DNA from: Campylobacteraceae bacterium
GTDB taxonomy: Bacteria > Campylobacterota > Campylobacteria > Campylobacterales > Sulfurovaceae
Reading direction: 5' to 3'
Assembly: GCA_026996165.1 (NCBI GenBank)
Contig: JALWMP010000099.1
Span: 1-45,322, forward strand
DNA length: 45,322 nt
Under the pieces are notes generated by a model, which worked only from the letters and a program-made list of their open reading frames with translations, did not search any database and was not told the origin of the DNA. Positions 41 through 45,322 of this stretch are shown one piece after another (position 1 is the first letter of the stretch; every line of letters begins with the position of its first letter). The translations under genes were made by a program, and so were the position numbers.

Positions 41-1507
41 TTAAATTTTATTATCTATTTTGGGTCTAGGTCGATAAACCTTAACATTCTCTCGTGACTC
101 CTCATCTCTTAAATACTGTGCATGAAGCTGACTCATCACCCCTTTGTCACAGTAGAGCAGATACTCTTTGTCTTGTGGAAGCTTTTTAAACTCAGATTTA
201 AGCTTATGGAATGGAATTTGAATTGTCTCACAAGAGGTTTTTATGCACTCCTCATTTTCACGAATATCTATAACTACATGTTTATCGGTTAGCTCATTAA
301 CTACTGCAACAGGAGCTTGTTCAGTAATATCGTCTACTACCTCATCTACATAGATACTCTTTGCATTGGCTACTGCTTTGTCTAATACCTCATAGTTAAA
401 ACGTTTTGCTTCACGCTCCATTCTTTTAAAAGAACCATGAGTAATTGGATTTTTAGAGATAACACCACAATACTCTGGCATACTCTCTGCAAAATGTTTT
501 GTACCTATCTTAGAGGCAATCTCTATAATTTCAGGTTTATTCATGGTTGCTAGTGGGCGTAAGACTAGCATATTGGTTGCACTATCTATAAGTGCTAGGT
601 TTCTTAGAGTTTGGCTAGAGACCTGTGCTACTGATTCACCTGTTACTAGAGCGTCTATCTCCATCTCTTTTGCTATCTTCTCAGAAGCCATAAGCATTAG
701 ACGCTTTAGGGTTACCCCCATATATGTTTCAGGTGTTGAACGAAAAATTTCAGTTAAGACCTCATCGAAAGGAACAGAGACTATCTTCACACGGTGAGAA
801 GCTCCAAACTTATTCCAGAGATAGAAGGAGACCTGTTTAACTCCTATCTCATGAGCAATTCCACCAAGATTAAAGAAGATAAAGTGTGTCTTAATCCCTC
901 TTTTCATAGTTAGGTAAGAAGCTACAGTGGAGTCAAAACCACCCGACATAAGTGAGAGTATATCACCTTGTGTTCCTATAGGATAGCCACCTAAACCTTT
1001 ATGTCTGTCGGTAATAATATTTAATTGATTGTTAATAAGCTCTACTCTAATAGTTACTTCTGGATTGTGCAAGTCAACCCCTTTAGCATTTGAGTGTGCT
1101 AAAATATACCCCCCAATAACACGCTCCATCTCTGAAGAGTTAAACTCATGTGAACCTGTGCGTTTGGCTCTAACAACAAAGGTTTTACCCTCTACCTCTT
1201 TGGCACACACTTCACACACTTGCTCTTTAATAGCATCTAAGGTTAACATATTGTCAAACTGTAAAGCTTCTAATACTTGTTCAATCCCAGAGGTTTGTAA
1301 AAGACGTGTTCGTACCTTGTCCACTACCTCAATAGGAGCAACTACTTCTACTTTATCTGAAAATTTTCTAATAGCTATATCTTTATGAATATCACCCATA
1401 AGTTTTATAAGATTGTTATAGAGTTGCCCTACCATCTGTCTTTTAGCTGATGAGCCTTTGACCATAATTTCAGGAAAGAGTTTTAAGATAAATTTTTGGG
1501 TTTTCAA
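41..1507 (-). CDS. thiI: tRNA 4-thiouridine synthetase ThiI with C-terminal rhodanese domain
   Basis: Contains PP-loop SGGFDST, the PEYCGVIS segment and a C-terminal rhodanese-like LLYCDKGVMS. The listed ORF extends to 1552, but a TTG at 1507 preceded by AAGGAA gives the expected N-terminus (M)KTQKFILKLFPEIMVKG. Confidence 0.93.
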   Translation of the reverse strand: MKTQKFILKLFPEIMVKGSSAKRQMVGQLYNNLIKLMGDIHKDIAIRKFSDKVEVVAPIEVVDKVRTRLLQTSGIEQVLEALQFDNMLTLDAIKEQVCEVCAKEVEGKTFVVRAKRTGSHEFNSSEMERVIGGYILAHSNAKGVDLHNPEVTIRVELINNQLNIITDRHKGLGGYPIGTQGDILSLMSGGFDSTVASYLTMKRGIKTHFIFFNLGGIAHEIGVKQVSFYLWNKFGASHRVKIVSVPFDEVLTEIFRSTPETYMGVTLKRLMLMASEKIAKEMEIDALVTGESVAQVSSQTLRNLALIDSATNMLVLRPLATMNKPEIIEIASKIGTKHFAESMPEYCGVISKNPITHGSFKRMEREAKRFNYEVLDKAVANAKSIYVDEVVDDITEQAPVAVVNELTDKHVVIDIRENEECIKTSCETIQIPFHKLKSEFKKLPQDKEYLLYCDKGVMSQLHAQYLRDEESRENVKVYRPRPKIDNKI

Positions 1508-1541
1508 GTGAGTAATTCCTTCGTAAAAAATAAAAGCCGTA

Positions 1542-2636
1542 TTATAGTCCAAAATAACTGTTTATGCCTTTAGCAATACCATAAACTAATACGCTTTGAT
1601 AAGTCTTATCTTGTAACCTCTCAACTTCATTTTTATTACTTATATAACCTGTTTCTACCAAAATAGATGGCATAGTTGTTGCTAAAAGTACCCAATATGG
1701 TTTACGTTTTATTCCCTTGTCATTTACATCTCTATACCGTTTTCGTAAATGTCTTAAAACACTATTTCTAACTTTTATAGCCAATTTTTTAGCATAAATA
1801 CGTTTTTTATCTCCTATCATCTGTTTATATTCTCGTATAGTATAAACCTCTTTTCCTCTATATACAATTCGTCTATTGTTAATACGTTTTGTATTTTTTG
1901 TAGATAGATAAAAAACAGTAATTCCTTCATATTTTACCTTAGGAGTACGTTTTATAGGTGCTGCATCAACATGAATTGAGACAAAAATATCTCCCTTGTA
2001 TTTATTAGCAAAATCAGTACGTTGTTTTAAACTTACAGTCTTATCTTTGGAGCGAGTCATTAACACTCTATAACCCATCCGTTTTAGTATCTCTCTAAGT
2101 CTCAAAGTCATACTCAAAGTCAAATCTTTCTCTCTAACTCTTTTGTTGGAAGCACCAATATCTCGCCCTCCATGACCTGCATCGAGAATAACAAGCTTTT
2201 GATGTCGTTTTCTACTATAGTGATATTTTTTTATCTGTTTAACAGTTTTTGGTAATACTCTTTTATAAGAGGGTAGGTAGATAGTTAATGTTCTATTTTT
2301 TAGCCGATGTCGCTTTGCTAAAAAATATTTAGACTCAATAACAATTCGTAAAATATGTTGGTTAAACTGCCCTATTCTTAACGACTCTACACCATCAGCT
2401 TTAAGATTTTTAATAGTCTTTCCAGATAAGAGAAGAGCATTTTTAATATCATAGACATGTTTAATTATTCCATTTTTTTTAATAGTAAAGTATCTTACTT
2501 TTTCAATTTTATGTTCAAAAGTTAGTTTGAGTCTATTTGAAACTAATGAGGTATTTTCTAAAGGATTATCCACTCTAGCCAATAGATTTAAATTAGTAAA
2601 AAGCAACATACAAAAGAAGATTAATAATTTATTCAA
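1542..2636 (-). CDS. N-acetylmuramoyl-L-alanine amidase (Amidase_3/AmiC type)
   Basis: Contains VILDAGHGGRDIGA, FVSIHVDA and ILVETGYISN motifs; N-terminal signal peptide. Confidence 0.92.
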   Translation of the reverse strand: MNKLLIFFCMLLFTNLNLLARVDNPLENTSLVSNRLKLTFEHKIEKVRYFTIKKNGIIKHVYDIKNALLLSGKTIKNLKADGVESLRIGQFNQHILRIVIESKYFLAKRHRLKNRTLTIYLPSYKRVLPKTVKQIKKYHYSRKRHQKLVILDAGHGGRDIGASNKRVREKDLTLSMTLRLREILKRMGYRVLMTRSKDKTVSLKQRTDFANKYKGDIFVSIHVDAAPIKRTPKVKYEGITVFYLSTKNTKRINNRRIVYRGKEVYTIREYKQMIGDKKRIYAKKLAIKVRNSVLRHLRKRYRDVNDKGIKRKPYWVLLATTMPSILVETGYISNKNEVERLQDKTYQSVLVYGIAKGINSYFGL

Positions 2637-2723
2637 ATGATACTCCCTATTTCATGACTACTTAGTCTAACATAAAATAATATTTTAAACTACTAGTTCA
2701 TTAATTTTTATTGACAATATTTT

Positions 2724-2751
2724 AAAGAAAACAGATTCTGTTTTCTTTTTT
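2724..2751 (+). terminator. Terminator-like perfect hairpin with T-tract
   Basis: AAAGAAAACAGA-T-TCTGTTTTCTTT followed by further T residues (six-T run). Lies in the divergent gap between 2636 (-) and 2839 (+). Confidence 0.55.
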
Positions 2752-2838
2752 CACATATTTTATAGTTTATTTAGATATTAAGAAACAATATTAAAAAAAT
2801 AATATAAAATATAATTATTATTAAGAAAGGATTTAATA

Positions 2839-3300
2839 ATGTCTATATTCCTTAAAAAACTATTTAATTTTAATAAAAACATTATTGATAATTATCAAAA
2901 GAAAACCAATAAAGAAGATAATAGTAATTATGAGGAGTATATTAAAGACTACTATTCAAAACAAGGCTATACAGTTTGGCATCATAAAAATAGAGACATT
3001 ACTTTTGTAGCAAAACGAAAAAGACAAATTTTACTTATTCATTGCTGTGATAGCCAATCTGATATTTCAGTTGAAGGATTAAAGAGTTTTCAAGCCCAAC
3101 GTGACCAATTTAAAAAAAACAATCCTATCTTTGAAAACTATAATCTCTCTTTACACTATATTATGTCAGGATTTTTTATAACAGAAGAGGCTTACAAATA
3201 TATGGAGAGTCATAAAGGTGGAATTACATATGAAGTGATAAAAAATAATTCAAATAATAACTGGCTAAACTCACTACTACTAGATAAAAAATCTAGTTAG
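2839..3300 (+). CDS. Mrr/restriction-endonuclease-like small protein (possibly catalytically altered)
   Basis: YEEYIKDYYSKQGYTVWHHKNRDITFVAKRKRQILLIHCCD resembles the Mrr_cat core (D...QxK), with HCC at the QCK position. Confidence 0.55.
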   Translation: MSIFLKKLFNFNKNIIDNYQKKTNKEDNSNYEEYIKDYYSKQGYTVWHHKNRDITFVAKRKRQILLIHCCDSQSDISVEGLKSFQAQRDQFKKNNPIFENYNLSLHYIMSGFFITEEAYKYMESHKGGITYEVIKNNSNNNWLNSLLLDKKSS

Positions 3301-4099
3301 CAAAAAAACTAACTATCTCTTCATCAACTCCTTTTATGAGTTCATTGTCACGATTATCATACTCAATATTTAACAATAAAAAACGAATTAAATTTAATCT
3401 CGCTCTCTTTTTATCATTTGCATCTAGCATACACCAAGGAGCAGAAATAGTTCCAGATTTTTGAAACATCTTATCTCGTAACTCTACATATCTATCATAC
3501 TCTTGATGAGACTTATAGTCTAAATCCGATAACTTCCAAGATTTTAAAGGGTCATCTTCTCTATCTTTTATTCTTTTAGCTTGAGTCTCTTTTGAAATAT
3601 TGAGATAAAACTTAAATATTATTACTCCATCATCTACTAACATCTTCTCTACATCATTTACTTGTGCATAAAACAGTTGATGTTGTTTCTCTGTACAAAA
3701 AGCAAAAACCTCTTCTATTCCTGCTCGATTATACCAAGACCTATCAAAACAGACAATCTCTCCTGCATTTGGTATCTGTTTTAAATGACGCTGAAAATAC
3801 CATTGACCTAACTCTTTAGAGTTTGGTTTAGGAAGTGCTACAGAACGTGCTTCACGAGGATTCCAAAAACGATTGAGAGTCTTTATAGACGAGCTTTTAC
3901 CACCTGTATCCATTCCTTCAAATATAATAAGTAGACGCTTATTATTTTCTATAGTCCACTTTTGTAACTTTACCAACTCTAAATATAGCTTTAAAAGCTC
4001 TTCTTCATAAAACTTTAGCCCTAATTTCCCATTTTTTTTAAAAACTTTTTTTCGTTTTTCTTGATATTCAGGTAGTTCTTTTGTGTAGATTACTTTCAT
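3293..4099 (-). CDS. ppk2: Polyphosphate kinase 2 family protein
   Basis: Contains Walker-A-like FEGMDTGGKSS, CFDRSWYNRAGIE and DREDDPLKSWKLSDLD motifs typical of PPK2. Confidence 0.9.
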   Translation of the reverse strand: MKVIYTKELPEYQEKRKKVFKKNGKLGLKFYEEELLKLYLELVKLQKWTIENNKRLLIIFEGMDTGGKSSSIKTLNRFWNPREARSVALPKPNSKELGQWYFQRHLKQIPNAGEIVCFDRSWYNRAGIEEVFAFCTEKQHQLFYAQVNDVEKMLVDDGVIIFKFYLNISKETQAKRIKDREDDPLKSWKLSDLDYKSHQEYDRYVELRDKMFQKSGTISAPWCMLDANDKKRARLNLIRFLLLNIEYDNRDNELIKGVDEEIVSFFAN

Positions 4100-5668
4100 C
4101 TATATCTCCTTTGGAATACTCTTAGAGGTCTTAGCTCCCATCTCTTTTAGCTGTTCAACTTGCCTTACAATATTTCCTCTTCCCTCACTAAGACGTTTTT
4201 TAGCCGATTCAAAACTATTTTGAAGAGTATCAAACTGTTTTGATAGTTTAACCATATCTTCTGAAAAACTTACAAACTTATCATATAAAGCACCTGCTCG
4301 TCTTGCTATCTCTTTTGCATTTTGAGTCTGCTTCTCATACTTCCAAACATTTTCAATAGCTCTCATAGCAATAAGTAGCGTAGTAGGGCCAACTAATAAA
4401 ATCTGCTTTTTAAAGGCATCATCATAGAGTGAAGCATCTTTTTCAAGCGCTAAAGCCAATGCCCCCTCAATAGGAACAAACATAAAGATAAAATCTAAAG
4501 TATTAATCCCTAAAAGCTTCTCATAATTTTTAGATGCTAAATTTTTAATATGATTACGCATAGCTTTAATATGTTCATTAAGGTGCAACTCTTTCATTTT
4601 GTCAGTTTGGGCTGAGATATACTTTTCATAAGCATTAAGTGAAGTTTTTGCATCTATAATAAGGTCTCGTTTATCAGGTAAATGTACCAAAACATCAGGA
4701 CGATAGGTCTTACCATCATCATTTTTTAAAGGAACTTCTCTAGTATACTCAATGCCTTTTCTAAGACCAGATGACTCTAAAACTTTTTCTAAAATCATCT
4801 CACCCCAAATACCCTGCTGTTTCTTTTCACCTTTTAGAGCATTTGTAAGGTTTATGGCATCTTGACTTATCTGTTGATTTAACTCTTTTAGTGACATAAT
4901 CTCCTGTTTAAGCATAGCACGTTCTTTAGACTCATCACTATATAGACTGTTTATCTGCTTTTTAAACTCAGATAGTTGAGACTCCATAGGTTTGATAATA
5001 GAAGAGAGGCTCTCTTGACTAAGTCTTGAGAAATCTTTTGAGTTACTCTCGAAGACTTTTGAAGCAAGTTGAGCGAACTCCTCTCTTATCTCACCTCTAT
5101 GCTCCTCTAACATTTTAAGCTTCTCTTGGGTCTGTTTTTGTTGCTCTTCCATCTGTATCTGTGTTTCACAAACACTTAAGTTTAGTCTATTGTTCTCTTC
5201 AACTAAAGCTTCATTACGCTTTTGTAGTAGATGGTAACCCTCCTCTTGTTTTAAGTAGGTCTGCTCTAAAAGTTCATAATGTACATTGAGTTGCTCTAGT
5301 GCTGATTGAGATTGATGTAGTTCGGTAAGATGCTCTTCTCTCTCCTTAAATAGACGCTCTTTTAACTCTTCTACTTTAGCTTTTGCCTCTTTAAGCTTCT
5401 CTTTAGTTTGAGAAAACTCCTCTAACTCTCTCTCTAACTTTGCTGTCTTTTTTCGCTCCTCTTGAAATGCTTCATAAAACTCACTTAAACGCTCCTCTTT
5501 TGCATTATCTATTGCTTTTGCTTGGTCTAAAATGGCTTCAAGCCGATTAATTCTACCTATGAAAAGTACAATAATAGTTGAGATAAGAACTGTTATAAGT
5601 AAAAAAAGCCCTACAGCAACCATTGTCATTTCACTACTCATTCCAAGTTTAGAAAATAGTTCTTCCAA
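4100..5668 (-). CDS. rmuC: DNA recombination protein RmuC homolog
   Basis: N-terminal TM segment, long coiled coil, then KKQQGIWGEMILEKVLESSGL, PDVLVHLPDKRDLIIDAKTSL and FMFVPIEGAL. Confidence 0.92.
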   Translation of the reverse strand: MEELFSKLGMSSEMTMVAVGLFLLITVLISTIIVLFIGRINRLEAILDQAKAIDNAKEERLSEFYEAFQEERKKTAKLERELEEFSQTKEKLKEAKAKVEELKERLFKEREEHLTELHQSQSALEQLNVHYELLEQTYLKQEEGYHLLQKRNEALVEENNRLNLSVCETQIQMEEQQKQTQEKLKMLEEHRGEIREEFAQLASKVFESNSKDFSRLSQESLSSIIKPMESQLSEFKKQINSLYSDESKERAMLKQEIMSLKELNQQISQDAINLTNALKGEKKQQGIWGEMILEKVLESSGLRKGIEYTREVPLKNDDGKTYRPDVLVHLPDKRDLIIDAKTSLNAYEKYISAQTDKMKELHLNEHIKAMRNHIKNLASKNYEKLLGINTLDFIFMFVPIEGALALALEKDASLYDDAFKKQILLVGPTTLLIAMRAIENVWKYEKQTQNAKEIARRAGALYDKFVSFSEDMVKLSKQFDTLQNSFESAKKRLSEGRGNIVRQVEQLKEMGAKTSKSIPKEI

Positions 5669-43706: not shown

Positions 43707-43877
43707 TATTCTCCTACTAACTATAACAGTAGAATATCATAAAATCACTTGTTGATTCTATCTATAATATAAAATTGCAACATTTTATTTTAGAAATGAT
43801 ACGTTATCTTTTTATAGTAAATAGTACAAAATTCAAGTAAAACCCCCTATAATTACATATAAAATTTAGGAGAACAA

Positions 43878-45056
43878 ATGCTTCGATATGCCCCGTCACC
43901 TATTGGTGATATCTGTTTAGATAATTTACAAATTGCCATTGTTAACTACCTTATTGCACAACAAAAAAATGACAAATTCTTAGTGCGTATAGAAGATGTT
44001 AATGTAGTAGATATGGAGGAGGGAAAAGATACAGAAATTATGATGATTTTAGAGAAATTTGCTCTAAAACATGACTTGGTCTTTCATCAAAGTGAACACT
44101 TAAATCTATATCAAACTTTAGCACTTCGTCTACTTAAAGAGAAAAAGGCTTTTATTTGCAAATGTAAAGATGAAAATTCCTCTTGCTATTCAAATTGTGA
44201 AACACTAAGCCAAGAGGAGTATAGAGAGATTAAAGAGAGTGGAAAACCTTTTGTAATACGTCTAAAATATAAAGATGTTGATAACTTTGTTATTTTAAAA
44301 GTAGATGGGAAACCAAGTTATAACTTTGCTTGTGCCACAGATGATATGATAAGTAATATTGAGCTAGTTATTCGTGATGAAAAATATCTTAATGAGACAG
44401 AAAAACAAAACTATATTAAAAAACTACTAGGATATGAAAAAGAGACTCACTATATACATATAAACACTACAAAAGATACCCCATCAGTAAAATCTCTTTT
44501 TAAAGAAGGATTTTTACCTGATGCTATTTTAAACTATTTAATTATTGAGTTAAATCCAAATGCTCCAAAGAAGGTTTTTAGACTTCCTGATGCCATTAAG
44601 TGGTTTAGTTTAGAAGATATTCCAAAAAAAAGTAACTATTTTGATTTAAAAAAGCTACAACAGCTTAATCGAGAACATCTAAAGCTTATTGATGATAAAC
44701 TTCTATCTACACTTTTTGGCTTTGCAGATGCCAATATTGGTAAACTTGCAAAAGTCTATCTTGATGAGTGTAGCACAATAAATGAACTAGAGAAAAAGAT
44801 AAAACTTATCTTTCAACCAAAAGATTTTTCTAGTGAATTTGGTGAGCAGATGAAGAGACTTTCAGAGTTAATCTTTGAAGCTCCAATAATAGAAAATTTT
44901 GATGAGTTTCAAAATTTTCTAATTAGAAAAAGTGGACTTAGTAGAGATGAACTCGAAAAGCCTTTAGCACAACTCTTAACATCAACAGCCCATGGAGCTA
45001 AGTTAAGAGAGATATATCCATACATTAAATCTTACATATTGGAGGTAGCATCATAA
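43878..45056 (+). CDS. Glutamyl-tRNA-synthetase-like protein with degenerate HIGH and KMSKR motifs
   Basis: RYAPSPIGDICLDNLQIAIVNYLIA...LVRIED, PSYNFACATDDM and a C-terminus SGLSRDELEKPLAQLLTSTAHGAKLREIYPYIKSYILE all align to GltX; motif changes described in findings. Strong SD (AGGAGAACAA ATG). Confidence 0.85.
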   Translation: MLRYAPSPIGDICLDNLQIAIVNYLIAQQKNDKFLVRIEDVNVVDMEEGKDTEIMMILEKFALKHDLVFHQSEHLNLYQTLALRLLKEKKAFICKCKDENSSCYSNCETLSQEEYREIKESGKPFVIRLKYKDVDNFVILKVDGKPSYNFACATDDMISNIELVIRDEKYLNETEKQNYIKKLLGYEKETHYIHINTTKDTPSVKSLFKEGFLPDAILNYLIIELNPNAPKKVFRLPDAIKWFSLEDIPKKSNYFDLKKLQQLNREHLKLIDDKLLSTLFGFADANIGKLAKVYLDECSTINELEKKIKLIFQPKDFSSEFGEQMKRLSELIFEAPIIENFDEFQNFLIRKSGLSRDELEKPLAQLLTSTAHGAKLREIYPYIKSYILEVAS

Positions 45057-45322
45057 TGAATTTTATACTACAACCTATCCTACTTTTTATTCAGATATAT
45101 ATCTGGATTGTTATTATTGCAACTATTCTATCTATGCTACAAGTTGACCCTCGTCAACCTTTTGTTGAACTAATAAATCGTATAACAGAACCAGCTTTTC
45201 GTTTTATTCGGCAAAAGATGCCCTTTACTGTTATTGGTGGAATTGACCTATCCCCATTAGTTCTTATTATAGGATTACAATTAATAAGTAGTCTACTATC
45301 TGGTAATATATTTGTTGCTATT
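45056..45322 (+). CDS. yggT: YggT-family integral membrane protein (truncated by window end)
   Basis: MNFILQPILLFIQIYIWIVIIATILSMLQVDPRQPFVELINRITEPAFRFIRQKMPFTVIGGIDLSPLVLIIGLQLISSLLSGNIFVAI; ATG overlaps the preceding TAA. Confidence 0.88.
   Translation, partial: MNFILQPILLFIQIYIWIVIIATILSMLQVDPRQPFVELINRITEPAFRFIRQKMPFTVIGGIDLSPLVLIIGLQLISSLLSGNIFVAI

Follow-up and report, generated by a model that had tools for sequence, protein, structure and literature searches.

In the Campylobacterota, the second glutamyl-tRNA synthetase (GluRS2, GltX2) has lost at least one of its two ATP-site motifs in every sampled genome that also carries GlnRS and has kept both wherever GlnRS is lacking, and the altered copies show the signature of purifying selection. 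We came to this pattern from a stretch of 45,322 nucleotides of a Campylobacteraceae bacterium (contig JALWMP010000099.1, our C99; hereafter the window), in which such a copy, gltX2', lies at positions 43878..45056 (+). From its open reading frame, a profile search, an alignment and an AlphaFold2 model, gltX2' is a degenerate GluRS2 of 392 aa.

The frame of gltX2' runs intact from ATG to TAA over 392 codons. A Shine-Dalgarno sequence, AGGAG, is found 5 nt before the ATG (43868..43872, +), and the ATG of yggT at 45056 shares 1 nt with the gltX2' stop codon, yggT itself (45056..45322, +) being cut by the contig end. The intact frame, strong Shine-Dalgarno sequence and yggT overlap of the initial annotation are thus confirmed, and the altered HIGH, GEDH and KMSKR strings that it had quoted are all present in 43878-45056. 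In the alignment, GDICLDNLQ occupies the place of the canonical GDMHIGNLR (43905..43931, +), so that CLDN replaces HIGN; the GEDH-type segment (44370..44408, +) reads IRDEKYLNETEKQ for a canonical IRGEDHLSNTPKQ; and both alignment and model indicate that the KMSKRD loop is deleted, leaving the short linker NTTKDTP (44463..44483, +). RYAPSP is present, as is the zinc-like cluster that had been reported, a compacted four-cysteine knuckle, CKCKDENSSCYSNC, at 44157..44198 (+), where the canonical form is CxC...YxxxC. The C-terminal domain, of the anticodon-binding type, is kept (44640..45053, +). In the window clade, yggT encodes about 176 aa and looks as though the 90-aa YggT found in other relatives had been doubled in tandem (window 45056-45322; L036 4161-4691). 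This close relative of the window genome also carries a 560-aa AAA-ATPase-like gene between nadK and gltX2 (L036 1164-2846).

The protein belongs to the GluRS family, since it matches Pfam PF00749 at 113.5 bits (cut-off 23.4) and the PDB matches agree. It stays below the cut-off of the GluRS equivalog TIGR00464 of NCBIfam (190.3 against 289.95 bits), lacks the HIGH-type and KMSKS-type motifs of a functional GltX, and is not a GluQ-RS (YadB), as judged by both its score with that model (106.5 bits, cut-off 276.7) and its C-terminal domain. The phylogeny of GltX1 and GltX2 that the initial annotation had proposed places the window gene with the intact Campylobacterota GltX2 and not with GluRS1. 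The gene lies upstream of yggT-slt, and the gltX2-yggT-slt order is common to the window locus and its canonical relatives; the window gene is an ortholog of Campylobacterota GluRS2. Structure modelling, also proposed there, predicts a full GluRS fold from which the KMSKR loop is missing. The AlphaFold2 model (eleven orthologs; mean pLDDT 84.8, pTM 0.83) has the Rossmann core, acceptor-binding insert, stem-contact fold and C-terminal helical domain of a class I GluRS, and its best PDB matches are GluRS over the whole length (TM 0.82 by query length to 3afh). Where the KMSKS loop is expected, strand E191-194 leads through a short linker into helix H204-210.

What the first reading missed, and what proves decisive, is that the genome encodes GlnRS at another locus. 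The assembly, a draft of 192 contigs that is 86.6% complete and probably a metagenome bin, encodes a complete GlnRS of 751 aa with a YqeY-type tail. A search for other canonical gltX copies, suggested at the outset, found in the same assembly a canonical GluRS1 of 461 aa with HIGG and KLSKRDG. The nearest named relatives are Campylobacteraceae and Sulfurovum MAGs. GatB is conserved in most sampled relatives and no AsnRS scores above the cut-off in the window's genus, so GatCAB is still needed for Asn-tRNA; in the 86.6% complete bin of the window itself, no separate GatB turned up. Between G000 and G011 (L002, L069), the dS of GltX1 is only 0.09 whereas that of GlnRS and GltX2 is 0.4-0.7 in the same genome pair, which suggests a recent exchange of GluRS1.

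We surveyed 105 GltX2 proteins of more than 300 residues, sampled across the Campylobacterota class. The HIGH-type and KMSKS-type motifs are intact in 63/63 GltX2 from GlnRS-lacking genomes, whereas at least one of the two is lost in 42/42 from GlnRS-carrying genomes (Fisher 2.6e-30, before correcting for relatedness). GlnRS status comes from partial matches in four genomes (G004, G010, G020 and G026), and without these the comparison is 38 versus 63, with no exception. When the motif columns are left out of the tree, 11 changes of the trait are required, and the 7 contrasts on well-supported branches are all concordant. Sister contrasts oppose G039 (broken) to G058 and G190 (intact) within one genus, G108 and G177 (broken) to G060 (intact), and G187 (broken) to intact congeners. 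Local decay in one MAG is excluded by this class-wide survey.

Within the window's genus, the orthologs span from fully canonical to fully altered, and this spread is explained by GlnRS presence: G016, which is 98% complete and has no GlnRS, carries an intact GltX2. The initial annotation had held that canonical relatives at this locus would speak against a pseudoenzyme. Such relatives do exist, but they do not refute it, because they are without GlnRS. The lesions are graded. In G029, only the histidine of HIGH is changed, to aspartate; G020, G022, G023 and G024 keep HIGH and have a lost or altered KMSKS; and three other genomes, 76-80% identical, share most of the lesions of the window gene. 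Sequencing error does not account for the changes, because these three relatives have most of them too and lesions of varying degree are seen again across 42 genomes. In G020 (Sulfurovum sp. UBA1140; L065), glnS is found in three frames near a contig end and the KMSKS of GltX2 reads RMGKGD with HIGH intact, which may be noise from the assembly or show a genome caught in transition. Neither GlnRS nor GltX2, only a GluRS1-like protein, was found in G068, G070, G101 and G171, all of one genus, or in G049, G052 and G056 (G049 also has a GluQ-RS-sized protein); a return to a non-discriminating GluRS is possible in these genomes.

Are the broken copies under selection? Codon maximum likelihood gives the window clade a dN/dS of 0.173 for the whole gene, 0.175 for the catalytic half and 0.169 for the C-terminal domain, and 0.10-0.17 for the other broken clades with usable divergence. 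Intact GltX2 comes out at 0.043-0.048, and the GluRS1 and GlnRS encoded in the same genomes at 0.05-0.08. Estimates that involve very long branches should be taken as rough. A dN/dS of 1 is rejected in the window clade (likelihood-ratio statistic 237) and for whole genes in the moderately divergent broken clades (144 to 346). In neutral simulation, stops appear in nearly all copies at 0.05 substitutions/site and in all at 0.1. A pseudogene is ruled out by dN/dS together with this simulation. The initial annotation had hesitated between a GluRS-derived pseudoenzyme and an early pseudogene and had named dN/dS as a check; the value of 0.17, not near 1, the statistic of 237 and the absence of stops support the former, a protein whose catalytic residues are gone while its coding sequence is under purifying selection. 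The broken copies are open, predicted to be GluRS-folded and constrained equally in both domains.

The columns lost in broken copies are catalytic (G206, D208, KMSKR, H19 and G21, G028 numbering) and the scaffold columns stay. Two further losses close to the C-terminus, K407 and F410 in the same numbering, make tRNA binding by the gltX2' product doubtful, and our analysis of conserved columns in the broken copies indicated no single retained functional surface. The zinc knuckle is kept in most broken copies; in the window's wider clade and in the unrelated G156, it is shortened to the compact CxC...CxxxC, in which the position usually held by tyrosine is a cysteine. Glu sensing after the manner of HisZ had also been suggested. 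We take Y187 and R205, with R5, S9 and E41, of Thermus GluRS to be Glu-site residues. The window clade keeps the equivalents of all five, but those of Y187 and R205 survive in only 21/42 and 25/42 broken copies. Glu sensing is therefore not supported as a general function, since about half of the broken copies have lost Glu-site residues, and was rejected as such.

The neighbourhood of gltX2' shows a further association. In parts of three families, glnS adjoins gltX2', in some cases in one operon (L175 of G170, 1175-4556; L049, L115, L122, L052, L110, L111, L117, L118, L066 and L067); the two genes either diverge or run in the same direction, in which case their ends overlap or lie close together. 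In G170, where gltX2' is broken, the order is glnS-gltX2'-yggT-slt with 8- and 4-nt overlaps. It looks as if glnS repeatedly landed at, or moved with, the gltX2' locus, and the adjacency could merely mark a glnS insertion site.

We propose that, once GlnRS charges tRNA-Gln, GltX2 loses aminoacylation while its polypeptide is retained for some non-catalytic task, an account that we consider probable as a whole. The ancestral job of GltX2, shown biochemically in Helicobacter as cited in a passage of PMC3927822, is to place Glu onto tRNA-Gln for amidation by GatCAB. The lineage of the window has gained a GlnRS of the Deinococcus type, extended by a YqeY tail, that makes Gln-tRNA-Gln directly. Where GlnRS is present, GltX2 loses its ATP-site motifs (HIGH, GEDH and KMSKR), and this has occurred independently in at least 7 lineages with no exception seen. 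That the ATP site is lost once GlnRS is present we regard as nearly certain; judging from the motifs, aminoacylation would be lost with it. Relaxed selection may suffice as the driver, and selection against Glu-tRNA-Gln formation is possible. The polypeptide would not be left to drift: both domains appear folded and under purifying selection, and most copies have either preserved or rebuilt the knuckle. Its retention under constraint seems very likely to us. The resulting non-catalytic protein would most likely act as a binding partner in the Gln/Asn-tRNA machinery, where the candidates are GatCAB, kept for Asn-tRNA, and GlnRS, encoded alongside in parts of three families. A true non-catalytic function can reasonably be expected, while either of these specific partners is a tentative suggestion. 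We also lean slightly towards the view that GltX2 already had a second, non-catalytic job that does not depend on aminoacylation, or comes by one easily, and that the arrival of GlnRS in at least 7 lineages stripped the enzyme and left a selected, folded pseudo-synthetase.

The most serious alternative, though one we think rather unlikely, is that the protein is a folded relic without function, its frame kept by translational coupling to yggT and its fold by the harm of a misfolded product, on a course of slow decay and eventual deletion. The gltX2'/yggT overlap is found in about 39/41 readable GlnRS-plus loci versus roughly half of the GlnRS-minus loci, as coupling would predict, but this statistic is confounded by family, and yggT manages without gltX2 in G041 and G044. 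Likewise, broken copies have roughly threefold the dN/dS of intact ones, and the retained columns are largely scaffold while catalytic ones are lost, yet 0.17 in both domains alike is a tight constraint if only the fold has to be maintained. Eventual deletion does occur: gltX2 is gone from the GlnRS-plus genomes G034, G041 and G044, with yggT persisting in the latter two, so that gltX2' must be dispensable, and the G111 copy (L176 2637-3578) is truncated to 313 aa, with most of the C-terminal domain missing and no yggT overlap. However, large in-frame deletions, which would be cheaper for a relic, are rare apart from those in the zinc/acceptor insert and the KMSKR loop.

It is very improbable that gltX2' encodes an unusual synthetase, or another adenylate-forming enzyme, that remains active despite its altered motifs. 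Such an enzyme would agree with the Thermus R5, S9, E41, Y187 and R205 equivalents retained by the window clade, and IleRS2 does tolerate an altered signature motif (PMC10485003). However, neither HIGH nor GEDH is left, the KMSKR loop is missing in its entirety, and the lesions vary by lineage and never occur without GlnRS, which a reshaped active enzyme would not be expected to track. Finally, the chance of an assembly or sequencing artefact or of bin contamination, to which a draft genome that is probably a metagenome bin is open, is negligible, since the pattern is found in genomes assembled into one or two contigs with a completeness of at least 99% (G039, G051, G055, G169, G170, G175, G187 and G191) and in independent MAGs.

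Our preferred reading, a pseudo-synthetase kept for a non-catalytic role, bears on earlier work. A 2014 genome survey (PMC3927822) found GluRS2 and GlnRS together in 6/10 epsilonproteobacteria, gave HxGN as the GluRS2 motif, recorded both enzymes in Mesorhizobium, and suggested that GlnRS is possibly the non-functional partner in epsilonproteobacteria. The motif data point to the opposite, with motif loss falling on GluRS2. Since the GluRS2 motifs are lost precisely where GlnRS exists, a switch from the indirect to the direct Gln-tRNA route, several times, is most likely. Among GluRS paralogs, GluQ-RS is the only one given a function in a 2022 review of duplicated aaRS (PMC9437257), and our literature search, mostly of journals open without subscription, returned no report of a pseudo-GluRS2 in Campylobacterota or of inactivation tracking GlnRS. 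As a practical consequence, many gltX annotations in the class mark proteins very probably unable to charge tRNA. If GltX2' is functional, it would be a class I aaRS pseudoenzyme that has arisen repeatedly, and comparisons could draw on sister species with intact and broken copies; if the second-job view is true, it would be a repeated natural experiment separating two jobs of one protein.

The window protein is of a known kind, the aaRS-derived pseudoenzyme; what sets it apart is the recurrence and the perfect link to GlnRS. By tree, length and gltX2-yggT-slt order, it is like Helicobacter pylori GluRS2 and the other Campylobacterota GltX2, whose intact members have an HxGN-type motif, but it is without HIGH, GEDH and KMSKR, co-occurs with GlnRS and evolves faster. 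GluQ-RS is likewise a paralog of the GluRS catalytic domain, but it keeps catalysis and has no anticodon-binding domain, the domain that the window protein retains. HisZ is also aaRS-derived, without adenylation and kept by selection; the analogy is limited to the way of working, as HisZ has the class II HisRS fold and HisG as partner whereas the window protein has a class I GluRS fold. Lastly, a second GluRS that does not charge tRNA, as in our reading of the window protein, is described for Thermotoga maritima in a passage of PMC3927822. That GluRS2 is, according to the same passage, a GluRS1 duplicate that keeps HxGG, whereas in the window GluRS2 the ATP-site motifs are destroyed and GlnRS is present.
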